In this document: positions 1,735-57,021 of the stretch, piece by piece
Layout: every line of letters starts with the position of its first letter
How positions within the stretch are numbered: the stretch's first letter is position 1
Source of the DNA: Xestospongia muta
Taxonomy: Eukaryota; Porifera; Demospongiae; Haplosclerida; Petrosiidae
Assembly (NCBI GenBank): GCA_963693285.1
Contig: OY848920.1
Location: 4,105,135 to 4,169,134, forward strand
Direction of reading: 5' to 3'
Length of the DNA stretch: 64,000 nucleotides
Position numbers and translations under genes: made by a program
The notes under the pieces: model-generated
What the model was told of the DNA's origin: nothing
Databases searched by the model: none
What the model saw: the letters and a program-made list of their open reading frames with translations, nothing else

Positions 1735-2025
1735 CTCTAAGATATTGACGTATTAGATCAGCTGTTTCCTTGTCATTAACAGTAGGACTCTCAATAGCAG
1801 TAACCACTGTTTCCCATTTAATAGGGGATGGTTGACTAGTTGGAAAGTTCTGAATGACTGCAAAGAGTTTATAATCATTGCCACTCTGATCGTGTTTCAA
1901 ATCATCCAAAACACTGCGACGTACTTGTAATGATAATCCAATATCATACCATTTGTCACTGATATCATATAATAGATGAAATAGTTCATATTTTGAAAGA
2001 GTCTCCTTTAATACACTGGTAATAT
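1735..2025 (-). CDS. Death-domain exon (left duplicate)
   Basis: This 291-bp exon encodes about 97 residues of a Death-fold domain, a helical bundle used for homotypic protein interactions in immune and apoptotic signalling. Diagnostic stretches are KWYDIGLSLQVRRSVLDDL in helices 2-3 and the conserved W of KWETVVTAIESP in helix 5. The reading frame is intact. The acceptor is a pyrimidine-rich tract ending ATCTCAG just above 2025. The donor is GTAAAAG directly below 1735. The exon begins after the first base of a Gly/Asp codon and ends one base into a codon, so both flanking introns are phase 1 and the domain is a symmetrical, shufflable module. The 47339-47632 exon is its near-identical duplicate. 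Partner exons on the 3' side lie outside the window. Confidence 0.85.
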
Positions 2026-2379
2026 CTGAGATAAGACAAAACAATTATTATAACAAACTGTCATATTATAAATTAATTAATGTCTTAAATTTATCATTTT
2101 AAATATATGTGGTATTGATGAAGTGTTGACAAATGAAAACTTCAATTATCAATAAATGGACATGGAATTTAATACAGAAACTTGGAATATAAAATTGTAA
2201 TTATATTTATACAATTAACTAGGACATCTACATGTACTACTATTCTTCTACTGTTAATAACATTTACTGTTTATCATTCAATGACTTCACTCACACTGAT
2301 CTAACAAATTTACTACTTATAATACAATGGTTTGTGGTTGGGCTTTAAATAGAATATGTGGTATGTCAAACAAATACTA

Positions 2380-18098: not shown

Positions 18099-18393
18099 AT
18101 CAGTGTGGCAAGGGTTCAGCACTTTTGTTCTTTCATAGCTGTTGGTCAAGGGAGGTCTGCTTTCAAAAGCCTCCAGTGACACTTTCAAAGATTATTGGCT
18201 GGTTCTATTACATAGCTGTCAAGAAGTCAAAATTATTTACATGTGTTGGTATCTTATTGCAAACATTTATCACAAAAACAATTTGACAAAGTAATCACCA
18301 AATTTGTACCTCAAACCTTCTGTACTATAATTGTATTAACTGTGTCAACATGTTTATTATTAATAATACAATTATTTAATACTAATCACTTAC

Positions 18394-18684
18394 CATATTT
18401 AAGATTTTGACGTATGCCATTAGCTATCTCTTTTTTGTTAACAATAGGACTCTCAATAGCAGTTATCACTGTTTCCCAGGTAAGAGGTGATGCTTCAGTC
18501 TCTTTGCAGGTTTGAATAACTTTCTTGAGAGTGTGGTATGAGTAGCCTCAGCTATCATGCAAGTTTTCAAAACATGGCGATGCACATTTAAAGATAATCC
18601 TATCTCATACCACATGTAATCAATATGTATTAGGATGGCATAATTTGTCAGTATCAGGAGTCTCCTTTAAGATACCAGTAATAT
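18394..18684 (-). pseudogene. Decayed Death-domain exon
   Basis: The exon length is 291 bp with donor ATG|GTAAGTGA and acceptor ATCTCAG, identical in layout to 1735-2025. The start (ITGILKETPDTDKL) and end (the WETVITAIESPIVNKKEIAN equivalent) are recognisable. The middle contains a stop after the first ~20 codons and at least one frame change, so no intact domain can be made. It lies about 1.8 kb downstream, on the same strand, of the 2A-encoding exon at 20518-20697. Confidence 0.75.
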
Positions 18685-19048
18685 CTGAGATAATAACAAA
18701 ATAATATAGACTGTCATATCCTTAATTATTCAATATTTTAAAAATTTCTGTTTCAATTGCATGTGGTATTAACTGATGCATTAATGTAATGTTACTGTAC
18801 CATTAATAATATTCATAGTTTAATTTCTTTTATCATATCTTTGATAATTTGTCAGTATCAGGAGTCTCCTTTAAGATACCAGTAATATCTGAGATAATAA
18901 CAAAATAATATAGACTGTCATATCCTTAATTATTCAATATTTTAAAAATTTCTATTTCAATTGCATGTGGTATTAACTGATGCATTAATATAGTGTTACT
19001 GTACCATTAATAATATTCATAGTATAATTTCTTTTATCATATCTTTGA
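18641..19048. repeat. Tandem duplication, 204-bp period, two copies
   Basis: The sequence from TAATTTGTCAGTATCAGGAG at 18641 repeats almost exactly from 18845 with a 204-base period and runs to about 19048. The unit includes the Death-exon acceptor and the first ~40 bases of the exon, so the broken gene has two candidate acceptors in a row. Few substitutions separate the copies, so the event is recent. Confidence 0.88.
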
Positions 19049-20500: not shown

Positions 20501-20517
20501 TCTTTTTAATAAGTTAC

Positions 20518-20697
20518 CTGTAGAGGTCCAGGGTTGAGTTCAACATCTCCTGATAAAAGAAGAAATAAAAGAAAGACTACTAAAGAGAAAGAATAATGTG
20601 TGGTCTTTCTGATTATAGTCACTCCTCCTATCCTACTACTGATCCCAGTGTTTGGAATCTTTTTAATGCGAATTTTGTAAGATATCTGATGACATTC
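20518..20697 (-). CDS. Exon with hydrophobic leader and 2A ribosome-skipping motif
   Basis: On the minus strand the open frame runs from after a TAG at 20700-20698 to a consensus donor (CTACAG|GTAACT) at 20518. It encodes a hydrophobic run (SLVVFLLFLLLS) directly followed by GDVELNPGP (codons at 20550-20524) and LQ. The motif D-V/I-E-x-N-P-G-P is the 2A sequence, at which ribosomes skip the Gly-Pro bond and release the upstream peptide. In animals it is known at the N-termini of NLR-type immune proteins (sea urchin), where the leader can act as a signal peptide, and in some non-LTR retrotransposons. No in-frame Met precedes it here, so the exon may start at an internal acceptor (several AGs between 20697 and 20585). 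The nearest same-strand coding sequence downstream is the broken Death exon at 18394-18684. The donor is phase 0 while that exon needs phase 1, so at least one exon lies between, if they are one gene. Confidence 0.68.
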
Positions 20698-21309
20698 CTA
20701 CAATCCAATACCTGCTCTTCATTGAGAGATATTAATCATTACCATAATGAGAGAATGATAGGTTAATAGATGAGTAGTGTCATTGCCATTTCATAAATAA
20801 AGAAATTTTGACAAACCATTTAGCTAATGTTTTAATCACATTCACTCGGACACATGAGTCAATTCATTTAATCAGACCTATATTGTATTAAGATATGTTG
20901 AACACTCAATGTTATCTGTTCTATTATATAATCATGAAAACTATGGATTCCTTATAAACGCCATACTTACAACTTTCACTATAATTATGTTCATAATTAT
21001 CATTATTATTAAACCAAACATTACTCTTTATCTATAACAATAGTAACTAATTGACTGTTGTAGTTCTTGAATGCCTCAATACAAGGTTACGTGATATAGC
21101 ATACTACATTCATACAATATATATCATACCTATGATATCATAACCAACTGTATAAGTGTACATAAAATCATGAGAAGGTTTCAATGTTCATTTTAAATTA
21201 CAATATCAATTGGCAATAATAATTATTGTTTTATTGACTCTTCTAGAAATTGCTATTAATAGATAGTTCTAGACTCTTTAGTTGTTATATAATTTGACTG
21301 ATTTTTGTA

Positions 21310-32144: not shown

Positions 32145-33735
32145 GGTACATGATAAATACAATTTTCAATCACAAGTGAATATTTAGCTCACATAATTGA
32201 CAGCACAAGCTTACATCCATCACCTGCTAAAGTTCAGACAATCCAGAAGGCACCTGATCCTACCAATATCACAGAACTAAGAGCTTTTCTAGGTCTCGTC
32301 AACTATTATCACAAATTTCTACCAAACATATCATCTATATTGTCTCCACTTCATATATTGCTATGTAAAGGGTTTAGACTCAGAGCCAACAAGCTGCTTT
32401 TGACAAAGTTAAAGAACTCCTACAATCAGATGCGCTGTTAATTTATTTTGATAGTACAAAACCAATATTAGTATATGCTGATGCTTCTCCATATGGAGTT
32501 AGAGCTATACTGGCTCATAAGATGCCAGACAACTCAGAAAAACCAATAGCATTCGCCTCTCGTACTCTCACTCCAGCAGAACATAATTACTCTCAACTAG
32601 AAAAAGAAGCTTTAGCTATCATCTACACTGTCAAATGTTTCCAACAATATTTGTATGGTACTCATTTCAAGTTATACTCAGACCACAAACCATTAGAAAG
32701 ACTTTTAGGTGAATTTTAGCAATTTCCTTCATTGGCTACAGCAAGAATCCAATGTTGGGTACTTACTCTTGCTGCATATCAGTACACTATTAAGTACAAA
32801 CCAGGGAAAAGTATGTCCACAGCTGATGCCCTCATCAGTAGGTTACCTCTTCAAACTACTCTGAATGATTCTCAAGTTCTCCTACCAGGTGACCTTTGTC
32901 ATCTACTCAATCATTTAGACCAGGCCATTCTTACAGCATCTCAAATAAAAGTCTGGACAGACAAGGATCCTCTATTGTCTCGTGTCAGAAAACTAGTACA
33001 GTGTGGCTGGAATATTACCAACCCAACAGCTGATATCCTTCCATTTCATACAAGGTACACAGAATTCAGTGTTTTAGACGGATGTATATTATTAGGTTGT
33101 CGTGTCATTATCTCTGCAGCAGGAGAGGACATTGTTCTAAATCAACTTCATGAAACCCATGTAGGGATTACTAAAATGAAAATGTTAGCTCGCTCTTACA
33201 TATGGTGGCCAGGTATTGACTCTGATATTCAACAAAATGTTCAAGGCTGTTTTACCTGTCAATCAAATCATCCAGTGCCAGCAAAAGCACCTCTTCACTT
33301 TTGGGAATTTCCACAGAAACCATGGTGTCATCTTCATATTGACCATGCAGGACCATTTCTAGGTAAATATTTTTTCATACTAATCGACGCTTATTCAAAG
33401 TGGCTCAAAATTCATATTGTTAACTCAACCTCATCTGAAGTTACCATTCAAAAGCTACAGCAAATTTTTTCCGCTCATGGTCTCCCAGAACAAATAGTTT
33501 CTGACAATGGACCACCTTTCACTAGCCACGAATTTAAGGACTATATGAAGCAATGTGGTATTCATCATATACATACTTCACCATACCATCCAAGTTCCAA
33601 TGGTCTAACTCCTGATGGCAAGGAAGTTATGAACAACATTGGATTTGATGCAGCCTGATGTATCTCTTAAAGTGACTACTAAACTAACTTCTAGTTCATC
33701 AAGAAAACCACCCCGCAATTTCAGTGTTGGTGATA
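32145..33735 (+). mobile_element. Gypsy-type retroelement fragment, copy A (RT end, RNase H, integrase)
   Basis: The copy is 5'-truncated. It opens in the C-terminal part of reverse transcriptase (HPSPAKVQ, then LRAFLGLVNYYHKFLP). RNase H (PIAFASRTLTPAEHNYSQLE, then YSDHKPLERLL) runs to a stop at 32717. The integrase region (32732-33658) has the H-x-x-x-H zinc-binding start region, then HVGITKMKMLARSYIWWPGI and CFTCQ. The first two acidic catalytic residues lie in HIDHAGP and SDNGPPF. The third, the Glu expected just after HPSSNGL, is missing because sequence jumps directly to TPDGKEV. Similarity to copy B ends at about 33735 before the C-terminal domain. It is non-functional as it stands. 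Confidence 0.9.
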
Positions 33736-34058
33736 AATACATTCACATGTTCTCAATACAAGTATCAAAAAATAGTTTAGTCAATGGAACAAGGATCATT
33801 GAGATAATTAAGTATTTTATTAAATTATTGACATATCTTTAAAAAATTGCTATCTAGCAGTGGCCATTTTGTTATTGAATTATACTCTCCTCCCTGCTAT
33901 ACTCCAAATTTTAATGATATAATTCCAACAAAAAATTAAATGCAGCAAGTAGGGAAGTTACATAATATTTGTATCATGTAACAAATGTTTCAAGCTATAA
34001 TGTAATAACAGTCCATATAAGGTAGTTTAGTTAGCTAACTATTGACATCTGGGGAGCC

Positions 34059-34312
34059 CTAGATGGTCATGTATTTCATTAGCTTTTGCTAAGTTACCAA
34101 TGAATCTTCTCTCAATAACAGAGATCACTGAGTAGTCAACCAGGTATGGATTACTTGAATGAGTTTAACTTTATTTTGTTCTGGACTGGTTTGTAAATCA
34201 CTTAAAACATTGTAGAAGATGTTTAAAGCTGAACCACTGACAAACCACTGGTAATCAATATCAGCTAATAATTCAAGTAGATTGTGTTCATCAAGGGTAG
34301 TATTTAAAATAT
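34059..34312 (-). pseudogene. Decayed Death-like exon at the 3' side of the GTPase gene
   Basis: The acceptor is TACTCCAG. The frame begins in the same position as the other Death exons (one base into a codon), reads ILNTTLDEHNLLELLADIDY, then WFVSGSALNI and LSDLQTSPEQNKVKLIQVIH. A frame change near the domain's central Trp leads into SVISVIERRF and NLAKANEIHD. The expected donor GT reads GG. Phase and orientation fit a 3' exon of the gene at 37.2-47.6 kb, making a GTPase followed by Death-like architecture, now broken. Confidence 0.6.
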
Positions 34313-34319
34313 CTGGAGT

Positions 34320-37214: not shown

Positions 37215-37858
37215 CTATAGAATAAATAAGGATAATAATTAGAGATAAAAAGCACAATATTATATATTTAATGTAATATAAACAAATAACTAGTAATGAT
37301 ATAATACTAACATAATAATATAAAGCTATTTTTGAAACATCTAGCAAAATCCTTGACTTGATTTTTTAATGTGTTATAATGTCAATATAGTATTAGTATG
37401 TTATATGAACATATATTCCCAAAGTAAATTTAAACATTTGTTTGTTTACACATCAGGCAAAGCTCAGCTTGTTGAATCCAAGGAAATCAAAAAAATTATA
37501 ATTCCAAGATTGTCCACTGTGTAAATATTTTTAAGTAAAAATATTGTTATTTCATTTTTCATTGTTTCTTAACTAAAATCTCATCACATTATCATTGACA
37601 ACCACATCATGTACAAGTGAAAAGATATCTAATTTATTCTTTGATCTAGCTGTAACGACAAATTTAAATTGCTATTTAAAAAGGTTTTGAATTACTGATG
37701 TTGCCTTAAAAAGTAATTAACTTGAAACAAACAAATAACGACTAAGAAACACCTCCTGTTCATTATCAATTTAATATGACCAATAATGTAAAGGCAATAT
37801 TTTTAATGTACCTACACATCAAACAATAATACTATATATTAGACTACTTTAAACTCAC

Positions 37859-39916
37859 CCTCCACAGTGAACCAAGGTAGTTGACAAGATTCATTGATGC
37901 AAGCAGTTGTATGGTTGTCACAACAGGTGACTGTTTTCTGGTCATCATTTAAATAACAGAAATGTTCTCGAGATTCATTGGAGCATATCTTACAATAAAA
38001 ATATTCTTCGAGGCTTTTAAAGTTAGCCATACATTGGAAGTTGCTGATGACTTCACGGATACCAGAATGGACAGCTTCACGTAAAACACAGCATCTTTTT
38101 AATGGGTCAGTACTGTATATTGCCATCCAGTAAATCCCATCGACTAAGAGAATGTCACCATAATCAGTACGTAAAGTAATAGCATTACGATAACGTGGAG
38201 TGGAATGTGAAGGACATCTAAGTTGAAACTTTGGTGAATGATTACAATGTAGAAGGTTGACAACTAATGCAGGGAATACACCTCGAGGAAGAGGATTCAT
38301 ATGCCAAGACAGGATGAGAGGGTCTACATGTTCCTTAAAAGGAGGTGATATAGACTTATATTCAGTGGATGATCTAGTAGGAAGGACAGTTGGTAGAAAG
38401 TATTTTCCTTTCTCAGGTAGAGAGGCTATTATAAATAAACTTGTCATTAACTTGAGAAAATCTTGTGGTGTAAACTCAGGACAGAATCCTTGTGATAAAT
38501 GTGAATTGGGTGATGTCAACAAGTCTTCTTTAAATGTTCCTTCATCTTTTAGTTCTTCATGAGCAGCATAACTATGTATAGGGATACCTTCTTCCTCCAA
38601 GTAATCAACAACACCAGGAAAAGAGATACTGATTAAATCAGAGAGTTTATTGAAAAGTGGTTGTGGATGATAGAACACTACATTAGGTAAGATTTTAGGA
38701 AAGTACAGAAAGATAGTCAGATCATGGTAGTAGTTTAGAGCTGCTTTGATGTCATTAGCACTCATTTGTAAGGTCATACCAATCTCTAAACAATTAGACA
38801 GACTTACAATGTTGGATTTAGAAAACTTTTGGAGCTCAAGTTGAAACAAAAACCATCGAATAGGAATTTCTGCCTCAATGTAATATTGGCAGATTTTCTT
38901 CCGAATTCTAGTAGCCATTTTCATCTCATCATCACCTCTGCCAATAGTATTGACTGGAAAAATTACTTCATTTCCAGCTCTGCGATGCATAATTGTGATT
39001 TGCCGATATTTATTCAAAGCTGACGAGAGAATTTCATTTTTCTTTTGGAGAGACTCATAAGATTCTAGCATTTTATCCAAGAATGTCCCTAGTACTATGT
39101 AGAAGTGTTCTTGAACATGCTTGATGCAAATGTTTGGTAATTCAGGAAAATCTACTGACAATACTGAACGAAATGATGATTCAAGAAGTTGTATATTTGT
39201 GATCTGTTTTTCTACTGGCACACCAATTAGTTTTCCCTCGACACTATAGAAGAATTTAGCTTTGTCCTCAAGCTTCTCAGTTAGTTTGTGTGTAAGAATA
39301 TTGACAGAGTGATATCGTAACAATGTTGGAGCAATGTCTATAAATGCAGCCTGACCACCAGTATCAACACCATATATCCAATGAGATTGATAAAGTTCTT
39401 CAGATTTCTCTACACAGGCTAAGAGGTCAATGATTTCCTGAATTATAGTAGGTTTTGGTAAAGAGTTCTGATCAACTGTTTGATCATGTCCTGCTGTGGT
39501 TGATGATTCAGAATCGTCACTATCTGATGTTTCTTCTTGTTGATCTGTTGGATGATCAACTGATTCTTCTAATGGCTGGTTTATTGGCTTGTTTTCTGAT
39601 GAGCCAGTTTTCTCTACTTCATCTGGTTTGAGAGGTCGAATGCTATGTTTAACTCCTTGAGTAATTATTTCTTTAAGAGACTCATGGTCTACTTTATTCC
39701 ACATGGAATCATCACCTACAGTGGCAGATATGATCCTTGCATCTTTTGCTGCAATTACTGGGGTACTGTTATGGCAATTTGGAGGATGTTCATTATAAAG
39801 TAGGTTTTAAAAGGATGGCTTGCCAGTTCCAGGTGCACCTGAGACAGAAAACTTGGTCCACTTAGCAGTGACATAGCCCTCCTTCATAGCTTTGTCCAGT
39901 AACTTCTTGTTAGCAC
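37859..39916 (-). pseudogene. P-loop GTPase/COR-like large exon, Walker A damaged and in-frame stop
   Basis: This is a 2,058-bp exon with acceptor ATATATTAG and donor GAGG|GTGAGT. After GANKKLLDKAMKEGYVTAKW comes SVSGAPGTGKP: a Walker A/G1 loop in which the Mg-binding Ser/Thr is replaced by Pro. A TAA stop (39807-39809) follows three codons past the loop Lys. Beyond it the frame is open for more than 640 codons, with a first Met at 39704. It contains an acidic linker (residues ~35-75 from that Met), the G3-like DTGGQAAFIDIAP, a helical region, and a COR-like segment (LTIFLYFPKILPNVVFYHPQ, as in Roco proteins: low-energy 'YFP...V..PQ'). The C-terminal module is Cys/His-rich (YFYCKICSN ... FCYLNDD ... 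CCDNHTTACINESC). Proteins of this type are abundant in sponges and are likely cytosolic signalling switches coupled to Death domains. A product from the internal Met would lack nucleotide binding. If the donor at 37859 is not used, the frame stops at 37839. Confidence 0.8.
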
Positions 39917-45115: not shown

Positions 45116-45409
45116 TTAATTTAAGATATTGACATGTCCTATCAGCTATTTCCTTGTTGTTAATAACAGGACTCTCCACAGCAGTAATTATTGTTTCCCA
45201 AGTGGTAGAGGATGATTTTGTATCTTTCCAGATGTTGATTACTTTCTTGAGTTTGGTTTCATCGTTGTCCTCACTTTGTTTTATCTCATCCAAAACATTG
45301 TGACGTACTTGTAATGATAATCCAATATCATACCATTGGTCACTGATTAAAATAAATACATCTAATAGTTCATTTTCATCAGGAGTCTCCTTTAATATAC
45401 TGATAATAT
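45116..45409 (-). CDS. Death-domain exon 2 of the GTPase gene
   Basis: This 294-bp exon has acceptor GTTATCTCAG and donor TTAA|GTAAGT, phase 1-1, and an intact frame. It contains ISILKETPDENELLDVFILI, QWYDIGLSLQVRHNVLDEIK and WETIITAVESPVINNKEIAD. It differs from the 47.3-kb exon at many residues of helices 3-4 (acidic, Lys-rich here), so the two Death domains have diverged. The introns on both sides share sequence with those around the 47.3-kb exon, which shows exon duplication in tandem. It is the last Death exon before the linker and GTPase exons. Confidence 0.83.
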
Positions 45410-47338
45410 CTGAGATAACAACAAAATAATTATTATAACAAACTGTCATATTAGAAAATAATTAATGTCTTAAAAATTATCATTTTAAATGTATGTGGTA
45501 TTGATTAATTGTTGACAAGTGAAAACTTCAATTATCAATAAATGGACATGGAATTTAATACAGAAACTTGGAATATAAAATTGTAATTATATTTATACAA
45601 TTAACTAGGACATCTACATGTACTACTATTCTTCTACTCTTAATATCAGATGAAATCAGTCACTGTTCATATCATATGAGTCATCAAATCAAGTGTAGGT
45701 AGATAGACATGTAATACATTGTATTGTAATGAAAAAAAACAGAAAAAACTGGAAAATTTTTATTTATCATTTGATTAAATCTACTGTATGGTAAATGAAA
45801 ATGTGTTTTCAGTCTAACTTTAACTACAACAGTAACTGTGAGTTAAACAGATAAGGATTACTATCAAGTCAATATGTTAGTATGGTATGTTCTATGTGTA
45901 TACATGTTACATGTTACATGTTATGAGATCATCTTGTGAGTGAAGGCTGGTTCACATAACAACACAAACCTTTGCATCACATTGCGTCATGTTGTGTAGT
46001 GTGTACACACATCAATTTATGAACACAGTATGTGCACGATGTACAAATGTGACGTGTCACAACGCGAAGATAGAATTAAGTTTCAAGCAATGTGTTTGTC
46101 CAATCAAATTTCAATAACCACGTGTTTTGAGTTTTTGCAAACAAGAAACTTATTGAGACTGTTTGTTGTTTCCCTTGCTTGTGGAAAGTATCTAGCAAAA
46201 GCTACAAGGATACAAGAGCAAGAGAAAACACATGGAAGGAAGTGGCAAGCTAGGTAACTGAATAAACAACAAACAGAAATACATAGCTGTTGAGTAAATA
46301 TAGGATACACCTACATTGTCTCCATTTTGCACTAGTAATAGAGTTTATAATGATGAGAATGGAGTTTTGTTCACATGTATCCTCTTTTTATATTAACAGC
46401 ATTGATGCTACACTACACAATGTGACACCAAGAGTGAAAAGTGACCTATATACAAGTGTAGTTTGTTGAACCCATCTTTAGACACATCCAAACACATTAG
46501 AAGTTCATTCTTAATATAAGTACTACATACTATACTTACGTTATAACTCCTTGACACAATACTGTAATTATTCTAAAATTTTGTGCCTCTAATTCGAATA
46601 ATAACTAATTGTTTGTAAACTTTCTACAATTTTTCTCTCTAGTATTCCTTTGTAAAATTTAAAGCTCCACATATTTATAATTTTGCCATTTACCTCCTTA
46701 TTTGGCAAGGTATACAATGGAAAAGAGGGTGATTTGAACATTAAAGAAAGCAAAGAGGACAGCATTTTACTGTAATGATTATCATTGTTATTCATTTTAA
46801 TACCATAATAGTAGATCAGTTTTGGAATATTCTCATAACACATGTTCTACTATTCTTCTATTTATTATGATCACTATTGTGTATCTATCATGACTATTCA
46901 TTTCTTCTATTTCTCCTGAAACTTGTCTCCTACCTCAGGACTCCATTCAACTTTGTAAATGTAATAACCTCTGAACCATATTGGACATATTGGCTCCTAG
47001 AACTTAGTATGTTGTCTCTTTATTTTTAATTAGTCTGTCTTTGTTACTGTACATTGTTACTTTGGTACAGTGTATTGACACTAACATTAGGTGTGGTTTA
47101 TATTTAATTTAATTCAATAAAGCTTACATCTATAAACTGACTTAATTCCATTCAAAAAGGATTGTTAATGACCTTCATTATATGGAAAGGTCAGAACAAG
47201 ACATGACTACCTACAAACTGATCACAATTATTCATAACATGTACAAAACATTCCTGTGTTCAAATTATAACTGATACAATCAACATCAAACCACTTTGAA
47301 GTGGATATTACTTAATAATAATAACTTATTACTCTTAC

Positions 47339-47632
47339 CTGTATTAAGATATTGATATATTAGATCAGCTGTCTCCATGTCATTAAGAGTAGGACTCTCG
47401 ATGGCAGCAATCACTGTTTCCCAGTTAATAGTGGATGATCGACTAGTTAGAAAGTTCTGAATGACTGCAAAGAGTTTATAATCATTGTCCCTCTGATCGT
47501 GTTTCAAATCATCCAAAACACTGCGACGTACTTGTAATGATAATCCAATATCATACCATTTGTCACTGATACTATGTAATAGACTGAATAGTTCATATTT
47601 TGAAGGAGTCTCCTTTAATATACTGGTAATAT
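47339..47632 (-). CDS. Death-domain exon 1 of the GTPase gene
   Basis: This 294-bp exon has acceptor TATCTCAG and donor ACAG|GTAAGAG, phase 1-1, and an intact frame. It reads ITSILKETPSKYELFSLLHS, KWYDIGLSLQVRRSVLDDLK, the helix-5 INWETVIAAIESP and DLIYQYLNTG. It is very close to 1735-2025, its segmental duplicate. The upstream exons and start of the gene are not identified. Confidence 0.85.
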
Positions 47633-49989
47633 CTGAGATAAAAACAAAACAATTATTATAACAAACTGTCATATTATAAATTAATTAATGTTTTAAAAAT
47701 TATCATTTTAAATGTATGTGGTATTGATTAAGTGTTGACAAATGAAAACTTCAATTATCAATAAATGGACATGGAATTTAATACACAAACTTGGAATATA
47801 AAATTGGAATTATATTTATACAATTAACTAGGACATCTACATGTGCTACTATTCTTCTACTGTTAATAACATTTACTGTTTATCATTCAATAACTTCACT
47901 CACACTGATCTAACAAATTTACTACTTATAATACAATGGTTTGTGGTTGGGTTATAAATAGAATATGTGGTATGTCAAACAAATACTAAATAAAGTAGAC
48001 ATTGAACACATTAGGGTGGAGCTAATTATTAACTAGTAATACATGGACAGTTATCTTTGTTACTGTCTACAATTATAATGATCATTTACCTGCTGCCATT
48101 TTCATGTAAATATACTCTCTCAGTACTACTTCACAGTGTAGTCAGGAGTCACCTGACTTGTTAACAAGTGTTAGGTCAGGCCTGATGTTTCTTAAAGTAC
48201 CAATTTACAGATCTGAAAGATACAAAATTTATCATTAACTAATTTTAAATTATATACATAATATAATTAAATTAAAATATTTGATGATCATATATTCTTA
48301 TAGACTGTTATATTTACAGTTACTATAATAACTAACCTCATTAATATTAATAGTTAGAAACAGAATTATTATCAAAGTAATCTTAGAGTAATTACTATAA
48401 TTATTACATGTATAATCTTGTTTTTGTATACAATAATTATAATCTTTTATTTACAATTTGCATATTAACTTTAATATCCAGTTATTAATAGACATATACA
48501 TATAAGGTGGGCTAGTGGTCGGTGAACCGTCTATTTGTAGAGTGTCCAGTTACAAAACTAGACAGTTAGAATGGTAATTACATTATCACAGATGTACATG
48601 AGGTTCATATGTTTTTTTTTTAAAGGGGGTTTACATTTTTAGCATACAGTGAGTTACAAAGAAAAATCCTTGTCACAAATATTCATTAAGGGCACAGCTA
48701 TATAGCTATTTTTATCAGTGATATTCATGTATTAATTATTATTGATAGCTATGCTCAATGATTTAAGGACATAGAAATTAATATTTATCAACTCAACACT
48801 TTATAATCACATTTAACAATAACTATACTACCACATGCACAGATAATTCTAAAAATTTTTGAGGTACCGGTAAGTAAATTTAACATCCACAAAAGAGGGT
48901 TCCTATAACCACCCAAACATCACCTGTGTACAGATCAGTACATGTAACAACTAATTACATGTAAACTTACTCATAATTAATCATATTCATTGTTGATTAA
49001 TTATGTGAAAGTTAACATCATTCATCTAGTGATATCTCCATTGAGTGTCATCACAAGATGTGTCATATTACAGTCCAAAAAATAATGAATATTACTATTT
49101 TTAATATAGTAGTTGAAGATTGGCTAGGAGGGTCCACTTTACTGGACTATAAGTAGTATACACCAGGTATATATAGGGATATAGCTTAACTTATATACAT
49201 AAAGGACAATGTCATTTAGACTGACCAGTCTTGTTTAGTCTAGTATATCACACACACATTTTGAATAGGATTTGGTTAAGCATTTGTACTTGAAGTCATT
49301 CAATTAAGCACATACAGATATGATCTTACATATTAGAATGTTATTAGCCAATATATGACTAAGATGTTTTTTTTAATAGAGCATTGTCTTTTTATTGAAG
49401 AAATAACACAATTACTTACACTTCTTTGTCTTAGAATACCTACCTTGTATCAGCCACAAAGGAACACTAATGACTTTTCAATCTTCCAAATTCCATTTTA
49501 AACATACATCACATATTGAAGGCAGCTCATTATCTTAAATTTGATTTGGACTAAGCAATCCCTCTCATTACAAGCTTTATTTTGTACAAGCAACCTTTCT
49601 CTTTTAATAGATGTGGTGTGGGAGACTAAGTCTTTATCTTTTACTTCAATAAACAATACTTAAAGGGGGCGTGACCCATTCAGTCTCAATACACAACATA
49701 TACAAGATAAACTATCAATAGATTAATACCTTTTTATTATTTCCAAGTGCAACTAGCACAACGAATTAACTGCCACTATTTACAAACTGGAGCTTTTATT
49801 CAGTGAGTGAGTACAGCCTCTCTTTTCGTAGTCAGCTAAGTAGCGAGGTTATTGCATATACCCATACATACCGGAAATAGCTGTAATTCGTAAAATCGGA
49901 AGAATTGAATATGCCTTAGCTGCGCCCGGACCACTGTTTTGGTCCTCCTCAACAGTTACGAATAATCAACTCCCACAGAATGTTTTTAG

Positions 49990-52969: not shown

Positions 52970-53251
52970 CGGAAGTCGAAGGCGGACATCCAATTCTATT
53001 TCTAATTTCATATAATCTGCTTTGAAGTTTGCCGACTATATGCAATTCTACTTTGCAGCTTTCCAAAAATATTCCAATTCAAATTCTATTTTCTATCCTT
53101 CGATGGAAATTTAACAACTAAATTCTATAGCCCCACCCTAACCGGAAACATGTCGCTTCGCTCCATTCTAAGAGACAGCTCGCGGTCCGCGTTTTAATTC
53201 AATGAGCGATAGAAAGTAGAATTGTAATTGGATGTCCGCCTTTGGCTTCCG
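52970..53251. mobile_element. 282-bp MITE with TA target duplication
   Basis: The left terminus CGGAAGTCGAAGGCGGACAT and right terminus ATGTCCGCCTTTGGCTTCCG are inverse with two mismatches. TA flanks both sides (52968-52969, 53252-53253). No coding capacity. It sits exactly between the truncated AACCTCGCTGT element and the middle of a Gypsy gag frame. Confidence 0.82.
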
Positions 53252-53253
53252 TA

Positions 53254-56200
53254 GTAGCTACATACGTGGCAGAACTCCAACCTTTAGGTAAACCCTGCGA
53301 ACTCGGTGACAAATTGAATGAAATAGTCGGAGATCGTCTAGTGTGTGGTGTTAACGACATCTGCATACAAAATCGTTTACTTCAAGAATCAAGACTAACT
53401 TATGACAAGGCATTCGAGCTTGCTCAGTCAAAAGTTGCTGCTAAAAATGCTACTGATCTGCTCAAAGTGTCATCCACCCAAAACACTACAGCAGTTCAAC
53501 ACCTGCACAGCAGATTATCACTTAGTACTACATTCAGATGCCATGTTAGCTGTTACCGCTGTGGAGGTAATCATTTAGCTAATGTGTGTAGCATTCAGAC
53601 AGCAGAATGCAGACCCTGTGGCATGATTGGACGTATTGCCAAAGTCTGCAGGAGTAACAATAGACAACCTCCAAGACATCCTCCTGGTGGGACTTTGAAA
53701 CCTCAAGCCAGACCTGCTAGCGTACACACCTTAACCACAGACCGTGCCTCTTCCCAGATCTCTGAAACCTCTGACCCTCTTAACACTTTAAATGGGCTGG
53801 AACACACTTACAACCTATTTACTTTACCTGGGAAAGTCAAACCTATTTTTATTACAGTTAATGTCATTGGTAGAGATATTTAATGGAGGTAGACACTGGT
53901 GCCTCACTTTCAATCATTAGTGAACAAACCTTTCGAGCCATAGCAAGTCCAACAGACAAGTTACAACTGACAAGCATTACATTCACCACTTATACAGGTG
54001 ACAATCTCCATATCATGGGAACCTATGACGTTCAAGTGTTATATATATGTCAGTCACAGACACTTCAATTAGTAGTAGTACAAGGCCATGGACCAAGTCT
54101 ATTTGGGAGAAATTGGTTAGAGAAGATCAAGATAGACTGGAACTCTATCTACTCAGTTCAGGAACAGTCATTATCCCCTCTTATTAGTAAATATAATTCT
54201 TTGTTTATTGATTCTCTAGGTTTGTTACAAGATGCCACTGCTAAATTGTATGTCAATACAGAGGTTGCATCTAAATTTTTTAGAGCCAGGCATGTTCCCT
54301 ATTGACTAAAGGATAAGATAGAAGTCAAACTCAGATGATTACAAGATGTAAGTATAATTACTTCAGTTCAACACTCTAAATGGACAGCACCTATTGTTCC
54401 TATTATGAAGCAATACAACTCAGTACGTCTCTGTGGTGATTATAAAGTCACTGTCAACAGACTCCTCACTCCAGATAATTATCCATTAATACAAATCGAA
54501 GATATTTTTGCTGCATTACAAGGAGGAATGTTGTTTTCTAAATTAGACCTCAGTCAAGCATATCAACAGTTACCTTTAGATCCAGACTCCAAAAAGTTCA
54601 CTACTATCAATACTCATAAAGGTCTATTTCAGTTTGAGCGTTTACCATTTGGGGTTTCAACAGCTCCTAGTATTTTTTAACATCTCATTTAGAACCTCCT
54701 CCAGGGCTTTCCAAATGTCTGTGTTTACATAGACAACATTCTAGTTTCTGGTATTAGTGAAGCAGATCACATGCAAAAACTAGAACAAGTTTTGTCTCGC
54801 CTATCATTAGCTGGAATTACCCTGAAACGATCCAAATGCACCTTTGCCACCACTTCAGTGGAGTTTTTAGGTCACATAATTGACAGCACAGGCTTACATC
54901 CATCACCTGCTAAAGTTCAGGCAATCCAGAAAGCATCTGCTCCTACCAATATCACAGAACTAAGAGCCTTTCTAGGTCTCGTCAACTATTATCACAAATT
55001 TCTGCCAAACTTATCATCTATATTGTCTCATCTACATATTGCAATGTAAAGGTACTAAGTGGAATTGGACTCAGAGCCAGCAAGCTGCTTTTGACAAAGT
55101 TAAAGAACTCCTACAATCAGATGCGCTGTTAATTCATTTCGACAGTACGAAACCATTATTAATATTTGATGATGCTTCTCCATATGAAGTTGGAGCTGTA
55201 CTGGCTCATAAGATGCCAGACAATTCAGAAAAACCAATAGCATTTGCCTCTCGTACTCTCACTCCAGCAGAACATAACTACTCTTGTGATATCATTGATA
55301 TCTTTTGCTTGCAGTTGCAAGTATAATAATAGAACTTTAAACAAAACTAATTCTCTTCTACTTTAACCAAAACAAAATGAACTATTTATACAAGAAATGA
55401 AACCAAAAAGGAAACAGTTAAGTAACACCAAGGAAATAACACCAAATTACAGTTACATTCACAGTGATAAAGGAGATAATAATAAAACAACTAAAGTGTA
55501 AATTTATGCTAAATACCACAACTCTCAACTAAAAAAGAAGCTTTAGCTATCATCTTCGCTGTCAAACGTTTCCACCAATATTTGCATGGTACTAATTTCA
55601 CATTATACTCAGACCACAAACCATTAGAACGACTTTTAGGCGAATTTTAGCAAATTCCTCCATTGGCCTCAGCAAGACGCCAACGTTGGGCACTCACTCT
55701 CGCTGCATATCAGTACACAATTAAGTACAAACCAGAGAAACGTATGTCCACAGCTGATGATGCCCTTGGTAGGTTACCTCTTTAAACTAGTCTGAATGAT
55801 TCTTAAGTTTCCCTACCAGGTGACCTTTGTCATCTACTCAATCATTTAGACCAGGCCATTGTACAGCTTCTCAAATAAAAGTCTGGACAGACAAGGATCC
55901 TCTATTGTCTTGTGTCAGAAAATGTGTACAGTGTGGCTGGAATATAACCAACCCAACAGCTGATATCCTTTCATTTCATACAAGGTACACAGAATTGAGT
56001 GTTTTAGACAGATGTGTATTATTAGGTTGTCGTGTCATTATCCCTACAGCAGGACAGGACATTCTTCTAAATCAACTTCATAGAACCCATGTAGGGATTA
56101 CTAAAATGAAAATGTTAGCTTGCTCTTACGTATGGTGGCCAGGTATTGACTCAGATATTCAACAAAAAGTTCAAGGCTGTTTTACCTGTCAATCAAATCA

Positions 56201-57021
56201 TCCAGTGCCAGCAAAAGAACATCTTCACTTTTTGGAATTTCCACAGAGACCATGGTGTCGTCTTCATATTGACCATGCAGAACCATTCTAGATAATTTTT
56301 TTTCATACTAATTGACGCTTATTCAAAGTGGCTCGAAGTTCATATTATTAACTCAACCTCATCTGAAGTTACCATTCAAAAGCTACAACAATTTTTTTTC
56401 ACTCTATTGTCCCTCAGAGCAAATAGTTTCTGACAATGGACCAGCTTTCACTAGTCACGAATTTAAGGACTATATGAAGCAATGTGGTATTCATCAATTA
56501 CATACTTCACCATACCATCCAAGTTCCAGTGGTCTAACTCCTGATGGGAAGGAAGTTACGAACAACATTGGATTTGATGCATCTGATGTATCTCATAAAG
56601 TGACTACTAAACTAACTTATAGTTCATCAAGAAAACCACCCTGCAATTTCAGTGTTGATGACAAAGTCTTTGCTCGCAACTATCATGGAACAAAAATGTG
56701 TTTGCCTGTTTAAATAGTTGAAGTGGCAGGTCCAGTCTCTTATAAAGTTAAAACGTCATCAAACTTGATTCTACAACATCATATTGACCAGTTACGCACA
56801 TGTTATGGACACTCAAATGAAGATACTGTTACTGATAATGATTTGGATAATTGGACTTTTCCATCATCTATAGATAGTAATACATTTACTCCTACAACTA
56901 CTTTATCTACTAACTCTACACCAGCTCAATCTCAGCCAGTATATTGTTTCTCATTCCTCTCGAGTTCGTAGAGCTATTGACAGATATGGTCCATATGTTT
57001 CTTAGCTAGATGGGGAAGAGT
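53254..57021 (+). mobile_element. Gypsy-type retroelement, copy B (partial gag to integrase C-terminus)
   Basis: The gag end (53254-53883) has VAELQPLGKPCELG, a CCHC knuckle CYRCGGNHLANVC, and a second knuckle whose His is Arg (CRPCGMIGRIAKVC). Protease starts at 53883 (MEVDTGASLSIIS), with a 1-base overlap to the gag stop. Reverse transcriptase (about 54345-55050) has LCGDYKVTVNRLL and FSKLDLSQAYQQLPLD. The catalytic box reads YIDN at 54726-54737 instead of Y-x-D-D, and two stops lie near 54680. RNase H is split by an insertion at 55285-55520. Integrase (55860-56700) shares copy A's jump from HPSSSGL to TPDGKEV, so it lacks the third catalytic acid. It ends with VAGPVSYKVK...HIDQLR and a GATGGGGAAGAG purine tract. 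Dead copy. Confidence 0.9.
55285..55520 (+). mobile_element. Solo-LTR-like insertion inside the Gypsy RNase H
   Basis: A 236-bp insertion starts TGTGATATC and ends TACCACA, with ACTCT duplicated on both sides (55280-55284, 55521-55525). The interrupted RNase H frame resumes cleanly after the second ACTCT (AEHNYS | QLKKEAL). TG...CA ends plus a 5-base target duplication are the hallmarks of an integrated LTR. The lack of internal retroelement sequence suggests a solo LTR left by recombination. Copy A (32145-33735) has the uninterrupted site. Confidence 0.8.

Follow-up and report, generated by a model that had tools for sequence, protein, structure and literature searches.

A relic 2A leader exon in the sponge Xestospongia muta and the family of putative N-terminal exons to which it probably belongs

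We analysed a 64,000-nucleotide stretch of the Xestospongia muta genome (hereafter the window; positions 4105135-4169134 of contig C4, in a 158-Mb genome of 28 contigs). The 2A motif found on its minus strand probably belongs to a decayed N-terminal exon of a large sponge gene family, in which a 2A leader would be followed by Death-fold exons and then by varied immune bodies. The copy in the window appears to be a pseudogene fragment of that exon. It is very probably not a working gene, because it combines two in-frame stops, a shifted donor and a broken Death exon. The features of the window that bear on this reading are the following.

20518-20739, minus strand: relic 2A leader exon, from the conserved ATG at 20739 to the donor at 20518 (alignment with 21 other copies from 20 loci)
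20719-20721, minus strand: in-frame TGA at codon 7, W in most aligned copies (common to the sister copy L057)
20698-20700, minus strand: in-frame TAG at codon 14, W in most aligned copies (common to L057 and L058)
20551-20604, minus strand: hydrophobic run TTHYSFSLVVFLLFLLLS adjoining the 2A motif (direct read)
20524-20550, minus strand: 2A/StopGo motif GDVELNPGP (direct read and genome-wide pattern)
20516-20517, minus strand: GT splice donor, its phase altered by the loss of 1 nt relative to stop-free copies (alignment)
18392-18688, minus strand: relic Death-fold exon of type B, which compared with the L021 copy has lost 2 nt at one place and 1 nt at another and contains in-frame stops
45141-45413, minus strand: type-B Death-fold exon with an open frame, located upstream of the relic and probably belonging to a neighbouring gene (Pfam Death match with E 4.4e-4, which does not reach the curated cut-off)
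47337-47636, minus strand: another type-B Death-fold exon with an open frame, probably from a neighbouring gene (Pfam negative at 1e-3)
1736-2029, minus strand: open type-B Death-fold exon, far downstream of the relic (no Pfam Death match at 0.01)
34057-34313, minus strand: broken type-B Death-fold exon, matched in two frames

Copies of the leader across the genome

Direct reading of the minus strand placed GDVELNPGP at 20550-20524, coded by GGAGATGTTGAACTCAACCCTGGACCT and immediately preceded by HYSFSLVVFLLFLLLS. The exon ends at 20518 and is followed by GT at 20517-20516 (CTACAG/GTAACT, the slash marking the exon end). A preliminary description of this DNA had proposed precisely this succession of hydrophobic residues, 2A motif and splice donor, and had placed it in a frame that we also found open, from 20506 to 20697. 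The perfect match to the 2A consensus on which it relied is not a chance occurrence. Exact matches to back-translated GDVELNPGP occur at 55 genomic sites and matches to the wider D(V/I)ExNPGP pattern at 147, while the reversed-pattern controls returned 0 in both cases.

Alignment of 22 copies (20 loci, one of them with two copies, and the window) revealed a shared upstream ATG and a shared downstream donor, beyond which conservation is slight. The family leader can be written as MID(I/V/T).QWR.SIGLW.CHQI, a variable linker, a hydrophobic run (typically FSLVLFLLLLLILS) and GD(V/I)ELNPGP-KT. Its donor is in phase 1 (AAAACAG/GT), and the leader exon of stop-free copies codes for approximately 73 residues. 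The preliminary description had suggested a genome-wide search for other copies of leader plus motif. Our leader protein search yielded 150 scored matches among 178 candidates, all with E <=1.3e-6, on contigs C4 (44), C12 (35), C14 (33), C3 (14), C1 (10), C6 (7), C9 (4), C2 (2) and C5 (1). Internal stops are absent from 132 of them.

The D(V/I)ExNPGP core is present in at least 121 of the 150 family copies. It is kept in at least 119 of the 132 stop-free leaders. Among the 18 stop-bearing ones it is intact in 2 (at most 5), of which the window copy is one. These motif counts are lower bounds, as they rest on 141 of the 147 pattern sites and one site outside the pattern. Three more stop-free motif copies (L040, L048 and L055) were read and no more than three sites remained unseen, hence the upper figure of 5 among 18. 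The stop-bearing copies do not represent independent events, since nine of them form one tandem series on C14 and three belong to the window's own lineage. In that tandem series (G000:C14:5105791-5215603, minus strand), stop-bearing and stop-free leaders mostly alternate, nine having stops.

For the estimation of dN/dS we started from 52 motif-like places. Six had no in-frame ATG by our rule, and from the remaining 46 we dropped L027 and the window copy, which have stops, and L042, whose start had been picked too far upstream. In the resulting 43 stop-free copies, dN/dS is 0.17 over the first 16 columns (the N-terminus), 0.93 in the linker and 0.19 in the hydrophobic stretch. By these ratios, the leader is under selection. 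The value for the 2A sequence itself, 0.10, is biased, because copies entered the set by a motif rule; the motif counts in leaders with and without stops are less affected by such bias. In the same 43 copies, the best 19-residue hydropathy window has a mean of 2.42 and ends at most 4 residues from the motif, and the hydrophobic stretch starts at residue 49 (median).

These data bear on the most serious alternative to a skipping leader, namely that it is a plain signal or membrane anchor whose NPGP end is inactive as a skipping site in sponges. Some leaders do keep the hydrophobic run with NPGP lost (e.g. L043, P0012 and P0024), as this alternative would have it. Nevertheless, we consider it unlikely, given the retention of the full motif in nearly all stop-free copies. 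Furthermore, the leader has 140 matching database proteins, and the motif is intact in 110 of the 120 that were listed, the query having itself contained it. The sequence context of the motif also argues against a plain anchor. D-type viral elements are described as having an L-rich upstream context and (A/S/C)G before the D, with a preference for S before NPGP (PMC12846837, as far as the consulted part of that article goes). The FLLFLLLSG that precedes DVELNPGP in the window copy fits the L-rich, (A/S/C)G rule. We retain the reading of the leader as a putative skipping sequence.

Several variants of the leader deserve mention. NPGP is lost and the hydrophobic run kept in L043 (G000:C12:4634708-4635171) and in P0012, P0024, P0074 and P0084, with endings such as ...SGDIELEIKKE; such leaders could possibly head receptors fixed to the membrane route. 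On C4, L023 and L026 display the variant GDVELNPGPR(A/T)EDQ with no donor at the usual place, and the frame of L026 continues for 222 nt from the motif. Two sites on C9 (G000:C9:3767257 and 3787040) share the motif codon pattern of this variant.

Gene bodies and splicing downstream of the leaders

We read 24 loci at 10 kb (L009-L032) and, using local domain probes, searched as much as 8 kb downstream of the leader in 23 of them. A match was found in 22 of these 23 loci, and in 21 the first one is a Death-type exon. It starts between 79 nt and 2.3 kb past the motif, and at 6 kb in L026; this nearness is a plain count in a genome where Death exons are common (150 scored of 1488 candidates). The sole match in L014 corresponds to the region that follows the second Death domain of L016, and L023 gave no domain match over the scanned distance of up to 8 kb. 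L013, which the motif rule missed in the scan, has two Death-type exons.

Further downstream the bodies diversify. NACHT bodies were found in L009, L029 and L031, ankyrin repeats in L011 and L030, two MATH domains in L015 and L016, and a COR-like match followed by Death and ZU5-like matches in L010. The COR-like matches of L012 and L028 lie more than 7 kb away and perhaps belong to a neighbour. Pfam assignments above the cut-offs were obtained for NACHT in L029 (9.6e-23) and L031 (2.2e-21), ankyrin in L030 (5.6e-257) and MATH in L015 (1.6e-48). The COR-A (4e-6) and ZU5 (4.6e-4) matches of L010 are below the curated cut-offs.

The junctions between leaders and Death exons were examined for their splice phases. 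With the strict pattern, the first type of Death exon (type A) lies within 400 nt of 10 of the 33 motif places in 41 loci. Nine of these ten loci have a phase-1 donor and a phase-matched acceptor (TTCAATAG or a close form) that are 48-57 nt apart, and in the tenth, L009, no donor was found by the donor rule. By tblastn, 12 of the 33 short loci examined, which mostly extend approximately 200 nt past the motif, contain the start of the type-A exon. In L031 the type-A exon contains a stop and the intron is approximately 180 nt long. For the second Death type, an acceptor fitting phase 1, the only phase looked for, is present in six of nine loci.

Two loci yielded longer gene models. L029 gives an uninterrupted frame of 1354 residues in four exons, coding successively for leader-2A, Death, an unassigned part, and NACHT with a C-terminal part. 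The third exon has only weak, unrelated Pfam matches; in P0233, the NACHT domain is preceded by a weak match to CARD (E 0.036). The NACHT region of L029 best matches NLRP3 chains and structures (E 9.7e-17). No Pfam leucine-rich repeat was detected at E <=1 in the C-terminal part of L029, in P0192 or in P0233, where the region is repeat-like by eye, and a search for such repeats with NCBIfam at E <=0.1 was also negative. We thus call the product a NACHT receptor and not an NLR in the strict sense, as no leucine-rich repeat was recognised. In L032, leader-2A, a Death exon and a Death-containing exon form one frame of 520 residues, in a model that uses one of five frame-keeping acceptors and has no 3' end. 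A search with this leader-Death-Death model collected 73 proteins of 321 to 412 residues at <=68% query coverage, none of them named, and thus yielded no annotated fusion other than those of the NACHT proteins.

Genomic neighbourhoods of NACHT exons

We compared the positions of NACHT exons (96 matches, from 102 scored of 155 candidates) with those of the 150 leaders and of 18 additional motif sites. A leader or 2A site lies within 5 kb upstream of 45 of the 96 NACHT exons on the same strand and of 2 on the opposite strand. Downstream, the corresponding numbers are 11, which reflect tandem arrays, and 0. The association varies between contigs, with a leader within 8 kb of 27 of 30 NACHT exons on C12, 0 of 16 on C2 and 0 of 4 on C13. 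Approximately half of the NACHT exons lack a leader within 8 kb, among them every one of the 16 on C2. In contrast with C12, the NACHT clusters at G000:C2:12294000-12417049, G000:C3:1314270-1382001 and G000:C13:4808246-4823369 have no listed 2A leader within 8 kb upstream.

Searching UniRef with the L029 model retrieved NACHT proteins of Amphimedon queenslandica, and nine among the 120 matches listed were fetched. Seven of the nine begin with MIDVSQWRASIGLW and contain D(V/I)ELNPGP, and the leader is absent from the other two (P0219 and P0222). In six of the seven the motif reads GD(V/I)ELNPGP; P0238 has R and not G before the D. The leader-NACHT fusion therefore stands in the annotation of a second sponge, with the proviso that these protein models are database annotations for which the underlying evidence is not stated. 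Proteins such as P0192, P0227 and P0233 have the same leader start, 2A and NACHT body as those of X. muta, whereas the leader sequence differs and identity is 44-50% over the aligned parts. P0192 and P0238 differ just before the motif. In P0205, P0226, P0227, P0231 and P0233, the 2A lies approximately 55 residues later than in P0192, after what looks by eye like a second hydrophobic run.

An alternative is that the leader exon encodes a small protein or 5' peptide of its own and is not spliced to the Death exons. It would agree with the observation that in most copies examined the frame runs only a few codons past the donor before a stop. The phase match across a 48-57 nt intron at nine type-A loci, the complete 1354-residue frame of L029 and the annotated fusions of A. 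queenslandica make it very unlikely. At the level of the family, these phase-matched donors, NACHT receptors and fusions uphold the earlier proposal that leader and 2A head Death-domain immune genes. Phase-1 exons such as those at the leader junctions are what exon shuffling would use. Tentatively, and with slightly less than even confidence, we propose that a phase-1 exon for targeting and skipping was brought by shuffling to the front of sponge immune proteins with Death domains, in at least four kinds of them (NACHT, ankyrin, COR/ZU5-like and MATH).

Structure prediction of the Death-type exons

We resorted to fold prediction because Pfam found nothing at E <=0.01 for the Death exon equivalents of L021 and L022. 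The AlphaFold2 model of type B (L021 and 19 relatives) has a pLDDT of 90.2. Its Foldseek matches in the PDB at ranks 1 to 24 are all death domains, with TM scores to the query of 0.44-0.71 and weak E values (from 0.24). For type A, with a pLDDT of 70.9, the top match is the FADD death domain (TM 0.74, E 0.028). Neither type has a Foldseek match at E <=0.001. Searching PDB sequences with the type-B profile gave 14 matches at E <=1, all of them FADD or THOC1 (best 0.0096). Four of the 20 type-B exons match Pfam Death at E <=0.05 (best 2e-4), L021 not being among them. Both types are predicted to adopt the six-helix death fold. In the window, 1613-2044 has a weak, unrelated Pfam match.

Decay of the copy in the window

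From the ATG at 20739 the window copy reads MINISQ-stop-RAGIGL-stop-ECHQI..., and its leader is 84.7% identical in amino acids to that of L021, the closest relative read at length, which has no stops; the stops of the window copy are at codons 7 and 14. The preliminary description had noted the lack of an in-frame Met. In fact, the Met exists at 20739-20737, cut off from the rest of the leader by TGA (20721-20719) and TAG (20700-20698). No Met follows the second stop up to the motif, and with two stops intervening the 2A motif lies outside any translated frame that starts at the conserved ATG. The phase 0 previously assigned to the donor proved to go with the loss of 1 nt just before it (CCT-CTACAG in the window versus CCTAAAACAG in stop-free copies), the donor of stop-free relatives being in phase 1. 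The TAG and the 1-nt loss of the window copy recur in both L057 and L058. L057 additionally shares the TGA, and it reads NSGP instead of NPGP.

The Death exon that had been reported as the next module on the same strand is indeed present at 18392-18688 and is 62% alike to the exon of L021; as a coding module it fails, owing to its two small deletions and in-frame stops. The genome-wide NACHT search listed no NACHT body in the window, and no similar DNA was found among plasmids. The window also contains, at 37842-39806 on the minus strand, an open frame of 655 residues without a Pfam match at 1e-3; it includes HWIYGVDTGGQAAF, which by eye resembles the COR-side segment of L010.

The open frame between 20697 and the donor, together with the intact 2A motif, could be taken to mean that the window copy still works as a gene, with its start at a non-AUG codon or in an exon further upstream. 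We find this hardly credible: no ATG lies between the TAG and the motif, the 1-nt loss and at least one of the stops are also present in two relatives, one of them reading NSGP, and the Death exon is frameshifted. Decay of a former N-terminal exon remains our reading of this copy.

Relation to retrotransposon 2A sequences

Non-LTR retrotransposons with 2A motifs are known (PMC4981915), and in the sea urchin genome both retrotransposon and host-leader 2A sequences have been reported, according to the consulted part of the same article. We looked for reverse transcriptase (RT) and endonuclease matches around the leaders, scoring 150 of 966 RT candidates; of the RT places on C1, 13 were compared by script and the rest by eye. 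This neighbourhood test lent no support to a retrotransposon origin of the leader family. The idea that a non-LTR retrotransposon with the motif in its 5' part has spread through the genome is scarcely tenable. In its favour are the many dispersed copies and two leaderless sites, C3:6007149 and C1:19554023, that lie 1.8 and 5.9 kb from an endonuclease domain. Against it, no scored match to RT or endonuclease lies on the same strand in the 6 kb downstream of any of the 150 leaders, and 22 of the 23 scanned loci continue with Death, NACHT, ankyrin, COR-like or MATH exons, with matching splice phases where read. The preliminary description had likewise disfavoured this origin. It had set against its own reading the prospect of many dispersed copies followed by endonuclease or RT sequence: the many dispersed copies exist, and no scored leader is followed by such sequence within 6 kb.

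The 2A elements of APE-type non-LTR retrotransposons were reportedly described by Odon et al. in 2013. They have D(V/I)ExNPGP in common with the sponge leaders, which differ in having no scored endonuclease or RT within 6 kb downstream. The two leaderless sites (G000:C3:6007149, minus strand, and G000:C1:19554023, plus strand) are probable non-LTR retrotransposons with 2A. As they are near endonuclease domains, the sponge genome seems to hold both kinds of 2A, host-leader and retrotransposon. Separately, the window contains LTR-retrotransposon-like fragments in several frames (RVT_1, integrase core and H2C2 zinc finger) at 32378-33655 and 53206-56710 on the plus strand.

Proposed function and comparison with known 2A systems

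In our proposal, as a ribosome makes the leader, the 2A sequence would let the Gly-Pro bond be skipped part of the time. Skipping would set the leader free as a peptide and leave in the cytosol a receptor whose first residue is Pro. Without skipping, the leader would stay on and take the receptor to the membrane or lumen of the endoplasmic reticulum. For the sponge copies, we infer skipping, membrane targeting and their degree from known 2A systems. The hydrophobic stretch may be a signal anchor, or may not target at all; an anchor rather than a secreted unskipped form is possible because the hydrophobic part starts near residue 49 and not at the extreme N-terminus. The dual targeting put forward in the preliminary description is thereby supported by analogy with sea urchin for the family, and not for the broken copy of the window.

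The closest known system is that of the Strongylocentrotus purpuratus SpNLR2A leaders (Roulston et al. 2016, PMC4981915; the comparisons below draw on the consulted part of that article). There, a 26-residue leader both recodes and targets: the skipped product is cytoplasmic and the unskipped one enters the exocytic pathway. Both activities are described for SpNLR2A6. Like the sponge leaders, those of sea urchin are hydrophobic and end in D(V/I)ExNPGP before NACHT-type receptors. They are also carried by a large share of the genes, approximately 35% of S. purpuratus NLRs (85/241) and 14 of 87 NCBI entries, as compared with 45 of 96 sponge NACHT exons judged by position. Unlike the SpNLR2A leader, located at the extreme N-terminus, the sponge leader has approximately 73 residues, with a long conserved N-terminus (MID.QWR.SIGLW) and a hydrophobic part that starts only around residue 49. 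Furthermore, it forms a separate phase-1 exon and is also found before Death-domain genes other than NACHT ones.

With viral 2A/StopGo sequences, as presented in the consulted part of PMC12846837, the sponge leader has the core octapeptide and the L-rich upstream context in common. In contrast with them, it belongs to a host gene family, is N-terminal and is fused to a stretch that resembles a membrane-targeting sequence. The residue before NPGP is mostly L in the sponge, whereas D-type viral elements prefer S. The same source describes cellular use of 2A as rare and gives the sea urchin NLRs as an example.

The principle is thus known from sea urchin NLRs; what we claim as new is a longer and different leader, its modular phase-1 exon, its many copies and its several architectures. 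A literature search retrieved no description of a sponge 2A leader family and gave no confirmation that such leaders had already been reported from sponges, as the preliminary description states; an earlier description is possible. In the consulted part of a sponge NLR paper (PMC12909245), the terms 'signal peptide' and 'skipping' do not occur.

If the shuffled-exon proposal is true, co-translational splitting between cytosol and membrane would be a genome-wide layer of control of the innate immune repertoire. The device would be either ancient in animals or invented twice, in sponge and sea urchin, and copies without NPGP in which the hydrophobic run is retained would correspond to receptors committed to the membrane route. 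We know of no larger cellular use of 2A than a shuffled sponge leader exon would represent. With approximately 150 leaders in one sponge, others in the proteins of a second sponge, and several architectures, StopGo would become a routine part of an animal immune system. Gene models that ignore the leader would misplace sponge receptors. The leader family suggests how a targeting module can spread by exon shuffling.
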